Assembly (NCBI RefSeq): GCF_000297055.2
Contig: NC_022357.1
Span: 1,488,001-1,552,000, forward strand
DNA from: Sulfuricella denitrificans skB26
GTDB lineage: Bacteria > Pseudomonadota > Gammaproteobacteria > Burkholderiales > Sulfuricellaceae
DNA length: 64,000 nucleotides
Direction: 5' to 3'
Below the pieces are notes generated by a model. The model was given only the letters and a program-made list of their open reading frames with translations. It did no database searches and had not been told where the DNA came from. Position numbers and translations under genes: made by a program. This document shows positions 19,898 through 28,555 of this stretch, piece by piece (the stretch's first letter is position 1; each line of letters starts with the position of its first letter).

Positions 19898-20241
19898 AGC
19901 GCATCGTCAGCGGAGCCCATTACGGCCTGCGCGACTGGTTGATGCAACGCGTCACGGGCGTCGCCATGGCGCTTTACTCGCTTTTCATGGTGGCCTTTCT
20001 GCTGACTCATCAGCCGCTTCAGTTCGAGGAATGGAGCGGTCTGTTTCAAAATCAGTGGATGCGCCTTGCCAGCCTGCTTTTCCTGCTCAACCTTTACCTC
20101 CACGCCTGGGTCGGGGTCAGGGACATCTTGATGGATTATGTGCACCCTACCGTGCTCAGGTTGACACTCGAGGCGCTGGTCATACTCGCGCTGGTCGGCT
20201 GTACTGCGTGGTCGGTGCAGATTTTATGGAGTATTCGATAG
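19891..20241 (+). CDS. sdhD: Succinate dehydrogenase membrane anchor subunit
   Basis: Second membrane anchor of complex II with three helices; [16 protein letters not shown] is the conserved haem/quinone-site segment. The chosen ATG has AGGGGGG about 8 bases upstream, and a GTG at 19882 is an alternative. The 116-aa length is normal. It overlaps sdhC at its start, and its stop TAG touches the GTG of sdhA. Confidence 0.93.
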
Positions 20242-22004
20242 TGGCCATCGCCAAGCGTACTTTTGATGCATTGATTATCGGTGGCGGTGGGGCGGGCCTG
20301 CGTGCGGCGCTGCAACTGTCCCACGCCAATCTGAAGGTGGCGGTGGTGTCCAAGGTCTTTCCGACCCGCTCCCATACCGTTTCCGCCCAGGGCGGCATTG
20401 CCGCGTCCCTGGGCAACGTCAGCGAGGACAACTGGCACTGGCACATGTACGACACGGTGAAAGGATCGGATTACCTGGGCGACCAGGATGCCATTGAATT
20501 CATGTGCCGACAGGCCAACGAGGCAGTGATCGAGCTGGAGCATTTCGGCATGCCGTTCGACCGCCTGCCCAATGGTAAAATCTACCAGCGGCCGTTCGGC
20601 GGAATGACGCAGAATTATGGCGGAGAGCCGGTGATGCGCACCTGTGCCGTAGCCGACCGAACCGGCCACGCCATGCTGCATACCTTGTACCAGCGCAACA
20701 TCGCTGCCAAGACCCATTTTTTCGAGGAATACTTCGCGGTCGATCTGGTGATGGATGGTCACGGCTATGCACTGGGTGCGGTGGCGATCGAGATTGAATC
20801 AGGCGAGCCGATCTTTATCGAGGCGCGCGCCACGCTGCTGGCAACGGGGGGCGCCGGGCGCATCTTCAGCGCCACGACCAATGCCCTGATCAATACCGGA
20901 GATGGCCTCGGCATGGCGCTGCGCGCCGGTATTCCGCTCGAGGACATGGAATTCTGGCAGTTCCACCCGACGGGCATTGCCGGGGCCGGTGTGCTGGTGA
21001 CAGAAGGGGCGCGCGGCGAGGGCGGCTACCTGGTCAACAAGGATGGTGAGCGTTTTATGGAGCGCTACGCGCCCAGCGCCAAGGACCTTGCTTCGCGCGA
21101 TGTGGTGTCCCGTGCCATGGCAGTGGAAATCCACGAAGGGCGCGGCTGCGGCAAGGACGGCGATTACGTCGAGTTGAAGCTCGACCATCTCGGGCCGGAG
21201 GTGATCCAGCATCGCCTGCCGGGCATTCGTGATCTTTCCATCAAGTTTGCTCATGTCGACCCGATCGAGGCGCCGATCCCCGTGGTGCCTACGGTACACT
21301 ACATGATGGGCGGCATTCCCACCAATCTGCAAGGGCAGGTGGTAATGCCGACCACTACCGCCCCGGAGGAGGCCGTGCTCGGGCTTTATGCCATCGGCGA
21401 ATGCGCCTGCGTTTCGGTGCATGGCGCCAACCGCCTGGGCAGCAATTCACTGCTCGACCTGATCGTGTTCGGACGCGCTGCAGGCAACCATGTCATCGAA
21501 TACCTGAAGGAAAACCCATTCCCGCGCCCCATACCGGATGGCGCCCTGGATCTGCCTATGACGCGCCTGAGCCGCTGGGATACCAAACGCGACGGTATTA
21601 CCGTGGACGAGTTGCGCGAACAGATGCGCAAGACCATGCAAAGGCATTGCGGCGTGTTCCGCAAGGAAGAGGTACTGCAGGAAGGGGTAAGGGAAATGCT
21701 GGAAATTGCTGCGCGCCTGCCGGATGTAATGCTGCGCGATCACAGCAAGATCTACAACACTGGCCGGATCGAAGCGCTGGAACTGGAAAACCTGATGGGC
21801 GTAGCGCTGGCGACGATGATTTCGGCCGCTGCGCGCCAGGAAAGCCGTGGAGCCCATGCGCGCGATGACTACCCGCTGCGCGATGATAACAACTGGCTGA
21901 AGCATACACTGTATTTCAGCGAAGGACACCGGCTGGATTACAAGCCGGTGCGGCTGAAGCCGTTGACGGTGGAGCCTTTCAAGCCGAAGGCGAGGGTATA
22001 TTGA
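20241..22004 (+). CDS. sdhA: Succinate dehydrogenase flavoprotein subunit
   Basis: Catalytic subunit oxidising succinate to fumarate. The FAD-binding [17 protein letters not shown] begins at residue 8, and SHTVSAQGG places the covalently flavinylated His at residue 45, as in E. coli. EFWQFHPTG and the RGEGGYL segment are substrate-site motifs. I chose GTG 20241, which overlaps the sdhD stop and has GGAG 9 bases upstream, giving 587 aa (E. coli 588); ATG 20226 would add five residues. The open frame back to 20031 is not coding. A repeat begins within its stop codon. Confidence 0.95.
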
Positions 22005-22053
22005 GTAATGGGTAAACGGTGATGGGTTTCCCCATTACTCATTTCTCATCACC
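22003..22053. repeat. Interleaved inverted repeat between sdhA and sdhB
   Basis: Units GAGTAATGGG (22003-22012) and GGTGATGGG (22018-22026) are followed by their complements CCCATTACTC (22031-22040) and CATCACC (22047-22053). The order A-B-A'-B' is not a simple nested hairpin. The first unit shares the last two bases of the sdhA stop codon, and the block ends just before the sdhB ribosome site (AGGAGA). Confidence 0.75.
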
Positions 22054-22064
22054 AGGAGAATTAA

Positions 22065-22760
22065 ATGCGTTTCTCGATCTACCGCTATAACCCGGAAACC
22101 GATTCCAAGCCTCGCATGCAGGACTATGAGCTGGATATCGAGGCCGGCAACATGATGTTGCTCGACGCCATTCTGCTGCTCAAGGCACAGGACGAGACCC
22201 TGAGCGTACGCCGCTCCTGCCGCGAGGGAGTGTGCGGCTCGGACGCCATGAACATCAATGGACGCAACGGGCTCGCCTGCGTTACGCCACTGTCCGGGCT
22301 CAAGCAGCCGATCGAACTGCGCCCGTTGCCTGGCCAACCGGTGGTTCGCGACTTGGTGGTGGATCTGAGCCAGTTCTACAAGCAATACCGCTCGATCAAA
22401 CCCTACCTCATCAACAACGAACCGGAACCGGAAATCGAGCGTCTGCAATCACCCGAAGACAGGGAAAAGCTGGACGGTCTGTACGAGTGCATTTTGTGTG
22501 CATGCTGCTCAACTGCCTGCCCATCGTTCTGGTGGAACCCGGACAAATTCGTCGGGCCGGCCGGGTTACTGCAGGCTTATCGTTTTATCGCCGATACGCG
22601 CGACCAGGCTACCAACGAGCGCCTGGACAACCTGGAAGACCCCTACCGGTTATTTCGCTGCCACAGTATCATGACGTGTGTGGATGTCTGTCCGAAGGGG
22701 CTGAATCCCACCGGCGCGATCGGTAAAATCAAGGAAATGCTGGTAAAACGCACGGTATGA
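22065..22760 (+). CDS. sdhB: Succinate dehydrogenase iron-sulphur subunit
   Basis: Electron-transfer subunit of complex II. The [2Fe-2S] ligands are visible in SCREGVCGSDAMN (Cys52, Cys57, Asp60) and LAC (Cys72). The [4Fe-4S] and [3Fe-4S] ligands are in CILCACCSTACPSFWW and CHSIMTCVDVCPKG. At 231 aa it has normal length, and AGGAGA precedes the ATG. Its TGA stop overlaps the ATG of the sdhE frame (ATGA), and a GTGAGG-type repeat starts with the very next base. Confidence 0.96.
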   Translation: MRFSIYRYNPETDSKPRMQDYELDIEAGNMMLLDAILLLKAQDETLSVRRSCREGVCGSDAMNINGRNGLACVTPLSGLKQPIELRPLPGQPVVRDLVVDLSQFYKQYRSIKPYLINNEPEPEIERLQSPEDREKLDGLYECILCACCSTACPSFWWNPDKFVGPAGLLQAYRFIADTRDQATNERLDNLEDPYRLFRCHSIMTCVDVCPKGLNPTGAIGKIKEMLVKRTV

Positions 22761-23071
22761 GTGAGGAGAGAAGAGTGAGGCGTGAGGAGGAAGATGGCGA
22801 AAATAGCAAGGGTTGTTTTACTCCTCACTCTTCACCCCTCACCCCTCACGGCCGTATTAGCTGGGACTGCCGTCGCGGCATGCTGGAACTCGACATTGTT
22901 CTGGCGCGATTTATGGCGCAGAATTTCAATCGGCTTACGCTGCAGGAAGTGGACGCATTCAAGGAACTGCTGGCTTATTCAGACCCGGATTTATGGGGCC
23001 TGATCCAGGGCGGTGAAATCGGCGTGGATGATAACGAAAGAAGGGTGTTGCTGTTGCTGCGCCAATATTAA
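22757..23071 (+). CDS. sdhE: Succinate dehydrogenase flavinylation factor SdhE with repeat-derived N-terminus
   Basis: Small assembly factor that helps attach FAD to SdhA. The family core starts at RISWDCRRGMLELDIVL (from about residue 33), containing the RGxxE motif, and ends NERRVLLLLRQY. Normal SdhE is about 85-90 aa and begins only a few residues before that core. Here the only in-frame starts before the core are ATG 22757 and GTG 22775, both at or inside a palindromic repeat. The protein must therefore be 104 (or 98) aa with a ~32-residue arginine/glutamate-then-proline/serine leader encoded by the repeat. Starting at the ATG of RGM would destroy the RGxxE motif. The order sdhCDAB-sdhE-gltA is common in betaproteobacteria. 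Confidence 0.88.
   Translation: MSEERRVRREEEDGENSKGCFTPHSSPLTPHGRISWDCRRGMLELDIVLARFMAQNFNRLTLQEVDAFKELLAYSDPDLWGLIQGGEIGVDDNERRVLLLLRQY
22761..22849. repeat. GTGAGGAG-type palindromic repeat overlapping sdhE
   Basis: Left arm units GTGAGGAGA, GTGAGGC, GTGAGGAGG (22761-22790) face CTCCTCACTC, CCCCTCACC, CCCTCAC (about 22821-22849). It begins at the first base after the sdhB stop codon and is entirely within the sdhE reading frame. It is the same family as the repeat at 24396-24478. Confidence 0.85.
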
Positions 23072-23090
23072 CTGAAGAGGATTACGAAAC

Positions 23091-24383
23091 ATGGGTGAAC
23101 GCAAGGCTTATCTCCAAATCGACGGTGGTGAGGCAATCGAATTGCCGATTCTTTCCGGTACCCTCGGCCCGGATGTGATCGATATCCGCGGCTTGGGAAA
23201 ATACGGGATATTTACTTACGATCCTGGCTACCAATCCACGGCCAGTTGCAGTTCGAAAATCACCTATATCGACGGCGACGAGGGCATCTTGCTTTATCGC
23301 GGCTACCCCATAGAGCAGTTGGCAGAGCATGCCGACTTCATCGAGGTCTGCCACCTTCTTTATTACGGCGAACTGCCTTCCCAGGAACAGAAGCAGGAGT
23401 TCGATTCGATCATACGCCATCACACCATGGTGCATGACCAGGTCAACAACTTTTACCGCGGATTCCGTCGCGACGCCCATCCTATGGCTTCAATGGTTGG
23501 GGTTGCAGGAGCGCTGTCTGCCTTCTACCCGGATTCCGGGGATGTGTCCGACCCGCGCCACCGCGAAATTTCCGCCCACCGGCTGCTTGCCAAGGTGCCT
23601 ACCATCGCGGCGATGAGCTACAAATACAACACTGGGCAGCCCTTCGCCTACCCGAAAAACTCGCTTTCCTACGCAGCAAACTTTTTGCATATGATGTTCT
23701 CCACACCGTGCGAGGAATACGTACCCAACCCGGTGATGGTCAGGGCGATGGACCGGATTTTTACGCTTCATGCCGATCATGAGCAGAACGCCTCCACTTC
23801 CACCGTTCGCCTCGCTGGTTCCAGCGGCGCCAATCCTTTCGCCTGCATCGCCTCCGGCATCGCTTCCTTGTGGGGGCCAGCTCACGGCGGCGCCAACGAG
23901 GCAGTGCTCAACATGCTGGAAGAGATTGGGGATGTATCTAAAATTCCGGAGCTCATTGAGCGCGCCAAGGACAAGAGTAATCCATTCCGCCTGATGGGCT
24001 TTGGTCACCGTGTGTACAAGAATTTCGACCCGCGTGCCAACCTGATGCGACAAACCTGCCATGAAGTGCTCAATGAGTTGGGCTGTCAGGATGACCGACT
24101 GTTCCAGATTGCCCTTGAGTTAGAACGCATTGCCCTGGAAGACGAGTATTTCATCGAGAAAAAGCTCTACCCGAACGTGGATTTTTATTCGGGTATCGTG
24201 CTTCGGGCCATTGGCATCCCAACCAATATGTTCACCGCAATTTTTGCCATTTCACGCACCATTGGCTGGATTACCCAATGGAATGAAATGATTGCCGACC
24301 CGGAACAGAAAATTGGGCGGCCGCGCCAGCTGTTCCTGGGTCCGAAAAAGCGGGATTTCGTACCGATTTCGCAACGTAGGTAA
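23091..24383 (+). CDS. gltA: Citrate synthase (type II)
   Basis: Condenses acetyl-CoA with oxaloacetate to start the TCA cycle. At 430 aa with the N-terminal domain (residues 1-60, [11 protein letters not shown]-like region at 45-60) it is the long, NADH-sensitive type of Gram-negatives. Catalytic His residues are in [14 protein letters not shown] and [13 protein letters not shown]; the aspartate lies in the [10 protein letters not shown] region. It is clearly different from the methylcitrate synthase at 15043-16203. It lies between sdhE and sucA, and a repeat starts 13 bases after its stop. Confidence 0.96.
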
Positions 24384-24395
24384 CCCGCGAAGCGG

Positions 24396-24478
24396 GTGAG
24401 GGGTGAGGAGTGAGGAGCAAAATCTCGGCCAGCGTCGATTTTGGCTTTTCTCCTCACCCCTCACTCCTTACCCCTCAC
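24396..24478. repeat. GTGAGGGG-type palindromic repeat between gltA and sucA
   Basis: Left arm GTGAGGGGTGAGGAGTGAGG (from 24396, continuing to 24417) faces CTCCTCACCCCTCACTCC and CCCCTCAC (24450-24478). It is the same family as the repeat overlapping sdhE. The sucA frame stays open through most of it (back to 24403). Confidence 0.85.
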
Positions 24479-24486
24479 TTGGTGTA

Positions 24487-27333
24487 ATGGAAAAGAGCAT
24501 GGGCGTAATGAAGGAGATGCAGGACAACTCGGCTCTTTATGGCGGCAATGCACCGTTCATCGAGGAGCAGTACGAGCTTTACCTGGGCAATCCTGCACAG
24601 GTTAGCGAGGAATGGCGGGCGTATTTTGACCGCCTGCAGAAAATGCCTGGGGCGGTTGCAACGGATGTTCCCCACGCCCCGGTGGTGCAGTCGTTCGCTG
24701 AACGTGCCAGGCATCCCTGTGTTCCGGTGCAGGGCGCAGATGTCGATGCCCTGGTCAACAAACAGATTGCCGTCCTTCAACTAATCAATGCTTATCGCTT
24801 CCGCGGCATGATGCGGGCGAACGTCGACCCGCTCAAGCGCCGCGAGTTGCCTGACGTGCCCGAACTGCTGCCTGAGTTTTACGGACTGAACGATGCCGAT
24901 TTGTCCCATGAATTCAAAACAGGATCTTTTCTGGCCCCGGATTCTTCGACCCTGCACGATATATTGCGGATACTCAGGGAAACCTACTGCGGCAATATCG
25001 GTTCCGAATACATGTACCTTTCGGATACCATGCAAAAGCGCTGGATCCAGGACCGGATCGAACCCAACCGTGCGCAACCGCAGTTTTCTCCTGAGAGCAA
25101 GCGACGCATTCTGGAGCAGCTCACCGCAGCGGAAACGCTGGAAAAATACCTGCACACCCGCTATGTCGGACAGAAGCGATTTTCACTGGAAGGCAGCGAC
25201 AGCCTGATCCCTTTGCTAAATCACCTGATTCAGCGTGCCGGCAGTCAGGGCGTGCAGGAGATGGTGATCGGCATGGCGCACCGCGGCCGTCTCAACGTGC
25301 TGGTGAACACCATCGGCAAGTTGCCGGGTGACCTGTTCCTGGAATTCGAAGGCAAACATACCGCACATATTCGCCTGCCTTCCGGAGACGTCAAGTATCA
25401 CCAGGGTTTCTCCACCGACGTCGCTACTCCAGGCGGGTCGATGCACCTTACGCTTGCGTTCAATCCCTCGCATCTGGAAATCGTCAACCCGGTGGTGGAA
25501 GGCTCGGTGCGCGCACGCCAGCAGCGCCGCTATGACATGGTGGGTGACCAGGTGGTGCCGGTGCTGATCCACGGCGATGCCGCCTTTGCCGGCCAGGGCG
25601 TGGTGATGGAAACCCTGAATCTGTCCAAAACGCGAGGCTTCGGCACCGGTGGCACGGTGCATATCGTCATCAACAATCAGATTGGCTTCACCACTTCCGA
25701 CCCGCGCGACACCCGTTCCACGCTGTATTGCACCGACGTGGCGAAGATGGTGGGCGCACCGATTTTTCACGTCAATGGAGACGATCCCGAGGCAGTTCTG
25801 CTGGTCACCGAAATCGCACTCGATTTTCGCATGAACTTCCACAAGGATGTGGTCATCGACCTAGTGTGCTATCGGCGGCTTGGGCACAACGAGCAGGATG
25901 AGCCGATGGTGACCCAGCCGTTAATGTACAAGGCTATCGCACAGCATCCCACCACTCGCCAGCTCTATGCCGACAGGCTGATCGCTGAAAACGTAATTTC
26001 ACCGCACGATCCCGAGGAAATGATCGCTGCCTACCGCCGGGATCTTGATGCCGGCGTTTCCGTGAACAGAAGCGTGTTGACCAATTTCAAGCAGTCATTT
26101 GCGACTGACTGGGCGCCCTTCAAAAAAGGCAAATGGACCGATCCAGCCAACACCAGTGTGCCGAAAGCCGACCTGCGGCGCCTGTCGGGTTTGCTGACAA
26201 CCACACCCCCAGATTTCAAGCTGCACCCCAGGGTTGAAAAAATCATTGCCGATCGCCGCCTGATGGGGGAGGGCAAGTTACCGCTGGATTGGGGTATGGC
26301 TGAAAATCTGGCCTACGCTACCCTGCTGGAAAACGGTTTTGCGGTTCGCTTATCCGGGCAAGATAGCGGGCGAGGCACCTTCTTCCATCGACATGCGGTT
26401 TTGCACGATCAGAACCGCGAAAAATGGGATGACGGTGCCTATTTGCCTTTGCAGAACATCGCTGAAAATCAACCCCGTTTTCTGGCTATCGATTCAGTGC
26501 TGTCGGAAGAGGCGGTGCTCGGTTTCGAGTATGGCTATGCGTCGGCCGAGCCGAACGAACTGGTGATCTGGGAGGCGCAGTTCGGTGATTTTGCCAATGG
26601 CGCCCAAGTGGTGATCGACCAGTTCATCAGTGCCGGCGAGGCCAAATGGGGCAGGTTGTGTGGCTTGGTGATGCTGCTGCCGCACGGCTTCGAGGGGCAG
26701 GGTCCTGAACACTCGTCGGCGCGACCGGAACGCTACCTGCAATTGTGTGCCGAAGACAACATCCAGGTATGCATGCCCACTACGGCAGCACAAATATTCC
26801 ATTTGCTGCGCCGCCAGATGGTGCGCCCCTATCGAAAACCATTGATCGTGATGACCCCGAAGAGTTTGCTGCGCCACAAGGATGCAATGTCGTCGCTGGA
26901 AGATCTGGCAAAAGGGAAATTTCATCCGGTTATCGGCGAAGTGGATGCCACGGATCCAGGCCGGGTCACTCGCATTGTGGCGTGTAGTGGCAAGGTCTAC
27001 TACGATTTGCTGGCGGCACGACGCGAGCGCAATTTCAATCACATCGCCATCATCCGTATCGAGCAGCTTTATCCTTTCCCTGCAGTGCAATTCACGGCCG
27101 AGTTGCAACGCTACAAGAAGGTCAAGGAACTGGTGTGGGCGCAAGAAGAACCGATGAACCAGGGCGCCTGGTATCAGACCCAGCATCATGTACGCGAATG
27201 TTTGTTGGCCAATCAGCCGCTTTTCTATGCCGGACGCCCCGCGTCAGCATCGCCTGCAGTGGGTTATGCCGCAAAGCATCAAGAGCAACAACAAGCCTTG
27301 ATAGACGCAGCACTAAACAAATTTCAACAATAA
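24487..27333 (+). CDS. sucA: 2-Oxoglutarate dehydrogenase E1 component
   Basis: Thiamine-diphosphate enzyme that decarboxylates 2-oxoglutarate, the first component of the OGDH complex. Visible motifs are IGMAHRGRLNVLVN, HGDAAFAGQGVVMET and HIVINNQIGFTTSDPRD (cofactor site), and the C-terminal EEPMNQGAW. At 948 aa it is near the E. coli length of 933. The start is uncertain: ATGs at 24487, 24499 and 24508 are all possible, and the family N-terminus corresponds to about MQDNSALYGG. The frame is also open back to 24403, through the repeat. sucB and lpdA follow as one operon. Confidence 0.95.
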   Translation: MEKSMGVMKEMQDNSALYGGNAPFIEEQYELYLGNPAQVSEEWRAYFDRLQKMPGAVATDVPHAPVVQSFAERARHPCVPVQGADVDALVNKQIAVLQLINAYRFRGMMRANVDPLKRRELPDVPELLPEFYGLNDADLSHEFKTGSFLAPDSSTLHDILRILRETYCGNIGSEYMYLSDTMQKRWIQDRIEPNRAQPQFSPESKRRILEQLTAAETLEKYLHTRYVGQKRFSLEGSDSLIPLLNHLIQRAGSQGVQEMVIGMAHRGRLNVLVNTIGKLPGDLFLEFEGKHTAHIRLPSGDVKYHQGFSTDVATPGGSMHLTLAFNPSHLEIVNPVVEGSVRARQQRRYDMVGDQVVPVLIHGDAAFAGQGVVMETLNLSKTRGFGTGGTVHIVINNQIGFTTSDPRDTRSTLYCTDVAKMVGAPIFHVNGDDPEAVLLVTEIALDFRMNFHKDVVIDLVCYRRLGHNEQDEPMVTQPLMYKAIAQHPTTRQLYADRLIAENVISPHDPEEMIAAYRRDLDAGVSVNRSVLTNFKQSFATDWAPFKKGKWTDPANTSVPKADLRRLSGLLTTTPPDFKLHPRVEKIIADRRLMGEGKLPLDWGMAENLAYATLLENGFAVRLSGQDSGRGTFFHRHAVLHDQNREKWDDGAYLPLQNIAENQPRFLAIDSVLSEEAVLGFEYGYASAEPNELVIWEAQFGDFANGAQVVIDQFISAGEAKWGRLCGLVMLLPHGFEGQGPEHSSARPERYLQLCAEDNIQVCMPTTAAQIFHLLRRQMVRPYRKPLIVMTPKSLLRHKDAMSSLEDLAKGKFHPVIGEVDATDPGRVTRIVACSGKVYYDLLAARRERNFNHIAIIRIEQLYPFPAVQFTAELQRYKKVKELVWAQEEPMNQGAWYQTQHHVRECLLANQPLFYAGRPASASPAVGYAAKHQEQQQALIDAALNKFQQ

Positions 27334-27364
27334 TTAATTCATTAAGTTATCGGAGATAGTTAAG

Positions 27365-28555
27365 ATGCTAGTTGAAGTTAAAATACCGGTTTTATCTGAA
27401 TCCATCTCCGAGGCCACCCTGCTTTCATGGCACAAAAAAGTGGGTGATTCCGTAGTGCGCGACGAGATCTTGATCGACGTTGAAACCGACAAGGTGGTGC
27501 TGGAACTGCCCGCGCCTCAGTCCGGCATTTTGGCAAAAATCATCAAGGGCGATGGACTATCCGTGACCGGTAATGAGGTGATCGCCGTGATAGATACCGA
27601 AGCCAATACCAGTCCTGAGTTAACAGCAGTCCTGAGTCCAGAGAAAACACCGAACTCAGCACTCTCGCTCAGCCCGGCAGTACGCAAGCTGGTGACCGAG
27701 CATCATCTCAATCCGGTGGAAATCAGAGGTAGCGGCCAAGGCGAACGCATCACGAAGGAAGACGTGCTGGCCCACCTCGAAAAATCGGTTAACCCAGTGA
27801 CTCATGCTGAGCCAGCGAATATCCCATCTGTGGCGACTGCAATACCTGCTGGCTCACGTCCTGAGCAGCGCGTGCCGATGACTCGGCTGCGCGCACGCAT
27901 CGCCGAGCGCCTGGTTGAGGCCCAGCAAACTGCTGCCATACTCACCACCTTCAACGAAGCCAACATGCAGCCAGTGATGGAACTGCGCAACCGTTACAAG
28001 GAAAAATTCGAGAAAGAGCACGGCGTCAAGTTGGGCTTCATGTCCTTCTTCGTCAAGGCAGTAATTGCGGCGCTGAAGAAATACCCGATCGTCAACGCCT
28101 CTATCGACGGCGACGACATTGTCTACCACGGTTACTACGACATCGGTATCGCGGTAGGCAGCCCACGGGGCCTGGTGGTGCCGATCCTGCGCGACGCCGA
28201 CCAGCTTTCCATCGCCGAGATCGAGAAGAAAATCGCCGATTTCGGAGTCCGCGCCAAAGACGGCAAGCTGACCATCGAGGAGCTTACCGGCGGCACCTTC
28301 ACTATCTCCAACGGCGGTGTTTTCGGTTCGATGATGTCGACCCCCATCCTGAATCCTCCTCAGTCAGCCATCCTTGGCATGCACAAGACCACTGATCGCC
28401 CCGTGGCGGAAAACGGCCAGATCGTCATCCGGCCGATGATGTATCTGGCATTATCCTACGATCATCGCGTCATCGATGGTCGTGAGGCGGTGCTGTCGCT
28501 GGTGGCAATCAAAGAAGCGCTGGAGGATCCGGCGCGCATGCTGCTGCAGATTTAG
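27365..28555 (+). CDS. sucB: 2-Oxoglutarate dehydrogenase E2 (dihydrolipoamide succinyltransferase)
   Basis: Core of the OGDH complex, transferring succinyl to CoA. Order: one lipoyl domain with the lipoylated Lys43 in ETDKVVLEL (residues 1-78), linker, peripheral-subunit-binding domain ([19 protein letters not shown], about 100-140), second linker, and catalytic domain ending [13 protein letters not shown] with catalytic His367 and Asp371. The 396-aa length is normal. The first linker (residues 82-103) is encoded by sequence closely resembling the GTCCTGAGT intergenic repeat and reads [20 protein letters not shown] instead of the usual Ala/Pro-rich linker. Confidence 0.96.
27610..27672. repeat. 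GTCCTGAGT-type repeat inside the sucB coding sequence
   Basis: CAGTCCTGAGTTAACAGCAG then TCCTGAGTCC, followed by the complementary ACTCAGCACTC, matches the words and order of the intergenic cluster at 18090-18178 (which also has AGTCCTGAGTTAA and CAGTGCTGAG). The block encodes the linker after the lipoyl domain without breaking the frame. Confidence 0.75.

Follow-up and report, generated by a model that had tools for sequence, protein, structure and literature searches.

A heptamer palindrome inserted behind the sdhE start codon of Sulfuricella denitrificans probably provides the start site and a tolerated N-terminal leader

In the genome of Sulfuricella denitrificans skB26 (G000, 3.2 Mb), a palindrome built of heptamer units is inserted just past the start codon of sdhE, at the sdhB-sdhE junction, and the reading frame of the gene runs through it. 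Judging by comparison with related genomes, we consider it quite likely that translation now starts inside this palindrome, at GTG 22775, and that the peptide thereby added to SdhE is a tolerated tag. Positions refer to the window, i.e. the whole stretch of 64,000 nt that was analysed, and the genus was represented by 12 genomes (G000-G011). Because GTGAGGN units are repeated in tandem along the left arm, AGGAG in the preceding units could serve each GTG as a Shine-Dalgarno sequence about 6 nt upstream. Initiation would most likely occur at GTG 22775 in this arm, possibly also at ATG 22757 by coupling to sdhB termination, and the ribosome would then read the loop and the right arm, so that a leader of 25 (or 31) residues is joined to the SdhE core.

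The gene upstream, sdhB (22065..22760, + strand; named from a reading of its sequence rather than by a family search), ends with TGA 22758-22760, which overlaps an ATG at 22757..22759 (+). The palindrome follows directly (22761..22849, +), with a left arm of GTGAGGN units at 22761-22792, a loop, and a right arm of NCCTCAC units at 22818-22849. The arms are 32 nt long and 78% complementary, the fold of 22740-22880 has a z of -3.4 (2/200 shuffles were equally or more stable), and the right arm is stop-free in every forward frame. ATG 22757 and GTG 22775 share one frame that stays open until the stop ending at 23071. The conserved core, an Sdh5 domain beginning with GRISWDCRRGMLELD, occupies 22850..23068 (+), and between the end of the palindrome at 22849 and ATG 22880 there is no ATG, GTG or TTG; ATG 22880, the next usual start codon after the repeat, encodes the Met inside the RGMLE motif. 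The original prediction that the core lacks a close start and has only ATG 22757 and GTG 22775 as in-frame starts before it is thus borne out. Counted up to Gly 22850, the leader would comprise 31 residues from ATG 22757 (MSEER...) or 25 from GTG 22775 (MRREEE...), both continuing through REEEDGENSK and CFTPHSSPLTPHGR. The most likely translated form spans 22775..23071 (+; 98 aa), and its residues 1-25, MRREEEDGENSKGCFTPHSSPLTPH, are encoded by the repeat. A search of window positions 20000-28000 for a known RNA family gave 20 weak Rfam matches, all to microRNA below the gathering score, and these were rejected as chance matches with hairpins. Considered as a MITE, the repeat has inverted arms and, when empty and filled sites were compared by eye, no clear target-site duplication.

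The identity of the core is well founded. A profile search matched Sdh5 (PF03937) to residues 33-103 of the 104-aa ORF with 66.3 bits against a cut-off of 27, and the core is complete, since the match begins at ORF residue 33, which corresponds to profile position 2. This was the sole PF03937 match in the genome at E <= 0.001, making SdhE a single-copy protein; on the narrower NCBIfam equivalog PRK10878 it scored below the cut-off (42.8 of 120 bits). The core contains RGMLE and aligns with SdhE/YgfY/UPF0350 entries, and we take RGxxE in SdhE to be the flavinylation motif. The closest SdhE matches among the named loci were 95% (a Gammaproteobacteria bacterium MAG), followed by 82% and 81% (Sulfuricella sp.).

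Both empty and filled versions of the site exist among relatives. SdhE was matched in 10 of the 12 genus genomes (G004 and G008 were without), and two of these ten, G007 and G003, have no repeat: there, ATGA combines the SdhE start with the sdhB stop, and the N-terminus reads MN-DRIRWDCRRGM or MN-NRILWDCRRGM. A hand comparison with the empty site of G007 (L009; ATGA-ACGACCG, the hyphen marking the insertion point) gives a net insertion of 87 nt, or 29 codons, at 22761..22847 (+). The remaining eight of the ten carry repeat-derived sequence. As judged by eye, the GTGAGG repeat of G000 is present in diverged form in G010 and G011; the palindrome of G006 consists of GGGTGAT/GGGTAAT units and that of G002, G005, and G009 of GTCCTGA-like units, and in G001 a half arm is found together with another palindrome. 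A leader is not compulsory in G002, G005, and G009 because a TTG stands two codons before the core. Outside the genus, a right arm is joined to the core in three of nine further same-family SdhE loci (GTGAGG type in G016 and G017, GGGTGAT type in G015), and six have no such repeat. In the genomes of genus g2 (L140-L147), SdhE apparently does not follow sdhB, and the sequence upstream varies between genomes, resembling in some of them the C-terminus of an integrase (by eye). The leader, whose uniqueness the original prediction had proposed to check by an alignment of relatives, is neither gene- nor species-specific. A sequencing error hiding a start after the repeat is unlikely, given that two sister genomes carry the diverged repeat and again have no start codon after it.

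GTG 22775 is the best-supported start, most likely giving the 25-residue leader, as judged from several lines of sequence evidence. It is favoured because of a strong Shine-Dalgarno sequence, homologues in sister genomes, the state of the codon overlapping the sdhB stop there, and the lengths of alignment gaps. The Shine-Dalgarno-like GTGAGGAGA (22761..22769, +) lies 5 nt before it with a predicted energy of -9.3 kcal/mol, compared to -2.8 for ATG 22757 and -11.6 for the out-of-frame ATG 22794, the strongest value but at a spacing of 3 nt. Random GTGs from the same stretches (n=400) averaged -3.0, with 3.75% at or below -8. The codon has homologues in G010 (-8.5) and G011 (-5.0; there GTG/ATG with a weaker Shine-Dalgarno sequence), and the codon overlapping sdhB is TTG in both, out of frame with SdhE in G011. 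Alignment gaps between the in-repeat GTG and the core measure 9 and 12 nt, and those in the RuvX and Ddl comparisons 3 or 21 nt; such multiples of three are expected if translation begins upstream. The claim that SdhE is translated through the repeat is therefore supported by the empty site in relatives, the in-frame insertion, the shared in-repeat GTG, the gap lengths, and parallel genes. The predicted leader of about 32 residues stands as a repeat-encoded leader, and its length probably needs revision, as GTG 22775 is a better candidate than ATG 22757.

ATG 22757 may nevertheless be used as well. That it is the main start, reached by ribosomes that end at the sdhB stop (ATGA coupling) and producing the 31-residue leader, appears somewhat unlikely to us. 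This codon is homologous to the nearest start in the repeat-less G007 and G003, where the upstream context is similar, and LolD is arranged alike, reading MSEE... from an ATG ahead of a repeat. However, its predicted Shine-Dalgarno sequence is weak (-2.8 vs -9.3), and the replacement of its equivalent by TTG in G010, and by an out-of-frame TTG in G011, leaves GTG 22775 as the preferred start.

The palindrome belongs to a large family. The exact motif CCTCACNCCTCAC occurs in G000 in 63+50 copies versus 7+6 for a reversed control pattern and was found in 62 of the 150 related genomes, including 11 of the 12 of the genus (G005 has none, G009 a single copy), although the reversed pattern reaches a similar frequency in some of the more distant genomes. 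Forty-six two-armed palindromes of the form (GTGAGGN)n...(NCCTCAC)n, drawn from 54 stretches and the window, were examined in G000, clusters lacking either arm being left uncounted. They measure roughly 50-130 nt and lie mostly at gene junctions in operons: 32 separate co-directional gene pairs, one a convergent pair, and 13 have one side without a gene call. Of the 38 genes that approach an element, 30 terminate 0-20 nt ahead of it and eight enter or pass its edge; for many of the genes downstream, an ATG is available 0-33 nt past the element. An ideal (GTGAGGA)n array has a predicted Shine-Dalgarno energy of -8.8, with AGGAG six bases ahead of the GTG two units on and one TGA per unit, and these signals fall in all frames because 7 is not a multiple of 3. 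A second palindrome of the GTGAGG family within the window (24396..24478, +) lies between a citrate-synthase-like gene and the next large ORF and requires no leader, since ATGs stand at +8, +20, and +29 after it. ORF 24403-27333 can be called from GTG 24403 inside that palindrome, and its longer N-terminus is probably an over-call. A further palindrome-like stretch, of GGGTAAT/GGGTGAT type by eye, lies in the sdhA-sdhB spacer (window 22003-22053).

sdhE is not alone in starting inside such a repeat. Inspection of the 46 palindromes revealed at least six whose downstream gene necessarily starts within the element, i.e. those encoding SdhE, HemW, LipB, RuvX, Ddl, and ApbE; six is a minimum because 13 elements had an uncalled side. 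No start is found between repeat and core in any of the latter five. The repeat joins the core as VRGKGEKATQLLAPHASPFTE-PPPLSLYIHLPWC in HemW, VRSEEKKAESEVLPLTPHSYLLTRN-LGLVEY in LipB, VRSEEKRLSSGEEILPPHPSPFTPHPPQR-GTVLGFDFG in RuvX, and ...GFSPHPSPLTPHL-FGKVAVLLGG in Ddl. In ApbE (L039:1965-3065; G000:C1:91164-92264), a lipoprotein-like signal, LLFALAGC, follows the repeat, and the next in-frame start is 94 nt past it; the repeat encodes the N-terminal part of the signal peptide of this ApbE-family lipoprotein-like protein. The in-repeat GTGs of HemW, ApbE, LipB, and RuvX have a predicted Shine-Dalgarno energy of -8.3 kcal/mol. At both hemW and apbE, the preceding gene (Ham1/rdgB-like and glutathione synthetase, respectively) also terminates in the repeat, with ...VRGEG or ...VRGEA, its TGA sharing bases with the downstream GTG. 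LolD is ambiguous, as a GTG at +6 past the repeat would still yield a full profile match. Long ORFs overlap the repeat or arm at L037, L038 (leuS, right arm only) as well, and two candidates, L051 (cysS) and L047 (TolB), were rejected as in-repeat starts, since their long ORFs overlap the repeat yet an ordinary ATG follows. Separately, a single ORF of 629 aa joins two lipid A acyltransferase-like genes across a GTGAGG-family palindrome (L042:1091-2980; G000:C1:325090-326979), with the linker EEKGVRREEQKPTPVPDFDFTPHASLLSPHFN followed by MMSRLGIF. This query was matched in 11 of 12 genus genomes, with a stop inside the best match of eight of ten relatives; the two halves are matched separately in G001 and G003.

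The same junctions harbour different palindromes in different members of the genus. At the rdgB-hemW junction, the eight codons before the HemW core are free of starts in all 12 genomes, and the sequence there is occupied by palindromes of unrelated families, of GTGAGG (3), GTCCTGA-like (3), GGGTRAT (2), GTAGGAGCGG (2, plus a partial one in G001), and GGTTGGG (1) type, families having been assigned by short words and by eye, and a strong fold not being universal (z +0.4 in G002). In G004 and G007 (L095, L102), the HemW core is preceded in frame by a REP-like palindrome, GTAGGAGCGGCC...GGCCGCTCCTAC, the nearest start being a GTG 26 codons upstream. Unrelated families likewise occupy the RuvX junction, where two of the 12 genomes (G003, G008) are without a palindrome, and repeats also come and go at LipB (10 genomes) and Ddl (8 with an N-terminus). 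No leader is needed at four of the eight Ddl loci because translation can begin at an ATGATG behind the spacer or palindrome. The Ddl start lies in the repeat in G000 and G011 (L083, minus strand from 2018; L117), the N-terminus reads MMQ..FGKVAVLLGG in G004, G005, G007, and G008, and G003 and G010 have another short ATG start. For SdhE, HemW, RuvX, and LipB, identity between G000 and G011 is 93-98% in the upstream genes and the downstream cores and 67-72% in the 90-nt junctions; the SdhE repeat compared with unrelated 90-mers gives a mean identity of 54% and 66% at the 95th percentile.

The leader had been proposed to be domesticated, i.e. a selected peptide, and the hairpin to control sdhE translation. 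Neither idea is supported by the comparison with sister genomes. From G000 to G011, 24 of 81 aligned leader sites differ versus 5 of 219 in the core, and from G000 to G010 21 of 84 versus 21 of 219. Leader differences are spread over the three codon positions as 8/7/9 and 7/6/8 in these two pairs and 5/9/10 in a third, and this evenness gives no sign of selection on the leader peptide; core differences (3/1/1, 6/6/9, and 3/6/10) are too few for a strong control. The SdhE leader is thus probably a tolerated, disordered tag, incidental to a repeat that carries start sites of its own, a view that follows from the make-up of the repeat, with Shine-Dalgarno sequence, GTG, and TGA in every frame. 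The insertion, its frame, the lack of further usual start codons, and the parallels in other genes can be read directly from the sequences; the initiating codon, any effect on expression, and the lack of a function for the leader are what we infer from them.

It is improbable, in our view, that the hairpin is a conserved regulator of sdhE translation or mRNA stability with the leader as its side effect. Folding is indeed a common property of these sites: over 61 junctions of the five genes, the median z was -2.2 with 24/61 at or below -3, compared to a median of 0.1 and 0/61 for within-gene controls, and sisters carry unrelated palindromes at the same junctions. These 61 exclude L001 and L011 (duplicates of L002 and L149), L032-L036 (named loci), L150 (a second G020 match), SdhE loci of other families (including L012-L030), Ddl L123-L127 (partial or unrelated), and HemN-like L103-L104. 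At sdhE itself, however, G011 no longer has the hairpin (z +0.6) and that of G010 is weak (z -1.4) while the frame persists, and in G003 and G007 the gene persists even without the repeat.

Two further readings are very unlikely. SdhE might start at a non-canonical codon near the core, e.g. ATT 22856, or at ATG 22880, with the repeat as an untranslated spacer, as would suit the many related G000 repeats behind which an ordinary ATG lies at a distance of 0-33 nt. Yet ATT 22856 encodes the conserved Ile of RI-W, which is kept in leaderless relatives that start upstream of this codon, a start at ATG 22880 would remove the RG of RGMLE, and gaps in multiples of three in the sdhE repeat are at odds with a spacer. 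Equally far-fetched is a damaged sdhE, with ATG 22794 (22794..23003, +; an overlapping 69-codon ORF) capturing ribosomes so that little SdhE is made: its AGGAGG gives the strongest predicted match, but the spacing is just 3 nt, no equivalent was read in G010 or G011, and the single-copy SdhE core is intact, without a stop and with the five differences from G011. Initiation at GTG 22775 within an inserted palindrome hence remains our preferred reading.

More tentatively, with the odds in our estimate slightly against it, heptamer palindromes might generally act as portable start cassettes that seize the upstream stop and the downstream start and are swapped among sister genomes, so that N-termini of housekeeping proteins (SdhE, HemW, LipB, RuvX, Ddl, ApbE) are continually rewritten. 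In such a cassette, a (GTGAGGN)n arm would supply a start, a stop (by GTGA overlap), and a Shine-Dalgarno sequence for the GTG two units on, each recurring every 7 nt. If translation from within the repeat is confirmed, it would show that an element between cistrons is able to take the place of the native start site in conserved genes, since it brings ribosome-binding sites and start codons in every frame, and would offer a natural experiment on the freedom with which protein N-termini are exchanged. It would also be a warning for annotation, as apparent N-terminal over-calls across palindromes can be real, and the genus would be suited to tracking element turnover at shared junctions.

Several known repeats share parts of this behaviour. 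Palindromic RPE elements of Rickettsia (105-146 bp) lie in frame within conserved protein genes, some of them N-terminal with the protein expressed, according to the accessible portions of the reports (PMC2229807, PMC10969869, PMC3733652). The sdhE palindrome is likewise in frame in a conserved gene, with an empty site in G003/G007, an 87-nt difference, and an open frame; unlike RPE as described there, the heptamer arms supply start codon and Shine-Dalgarno sequence, lie at operon junctions, and are replaced by unrelated palindromes in sisters. RAYT-associated GTAG/CGTC REPs are abundant short palindromes that separate co-directional genes and lie close to the upstream stop; some are in ORFs, more at the N- than the C-terminus, though often judged extragenic, as the available text has it (PMC3733652). 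The heptamer palindromes resemble them in their co-directional setting (32/46) and in the 30/38 approaching genes that stop 0-20 nt before them, but their arms end in GTGAGG/CCTCAC rather than GTAG or CGTC; the rdgB-hemW junctions of G004 and G007 do carry REP-like GTAGGAGCGG palindromes. A RAYT transposase as the mover of the repeat was rejected, with 0 PF01797 (Y1) matches in G000 and a positive control in 5/14 genomes. ERIC/RU-1 and related enterobacterial MITEs are small palindromic mobile repeats whose frames can be fused in frame to ORFs (PMC2759123, PMC2229807, accessible portions), mostly C-terminally with one N-terminal case (wbbJ), whereas the heptamer repeat forms the start of housekeeping genes. 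GGGNATC / GGGGA(C/T)T heptamers of Xanthomonas and Nostoc are mostly intergenic, between aligned genes, and vary between related species; their unit is different, they may form G-quadruplexes, and the available part of the report does not mention translation as leaders (PMC4692102). Intrastrand-triplex motif was considered as a name for the heptamer repeat and set aside, going by the accessible part of its description (PMC4666352). Literature searches with six exact 12-13-mers returned no bacterial repeat among the matches listed, judged by titles, and searches on Sulfuricella repeats and on palindromes with translational coupling did not return this arrangement among the matches listed, seen in part; nor was a description of heptamer palindromes as start-site donors found in the portion of the literature covered, which has most subscription journals outside its scope. 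Translated palindromes as such are thus already known from Rickettsia RPE, REP, and ERIC, and the new part appears to be the heptamer repeat as a donor of start sites.
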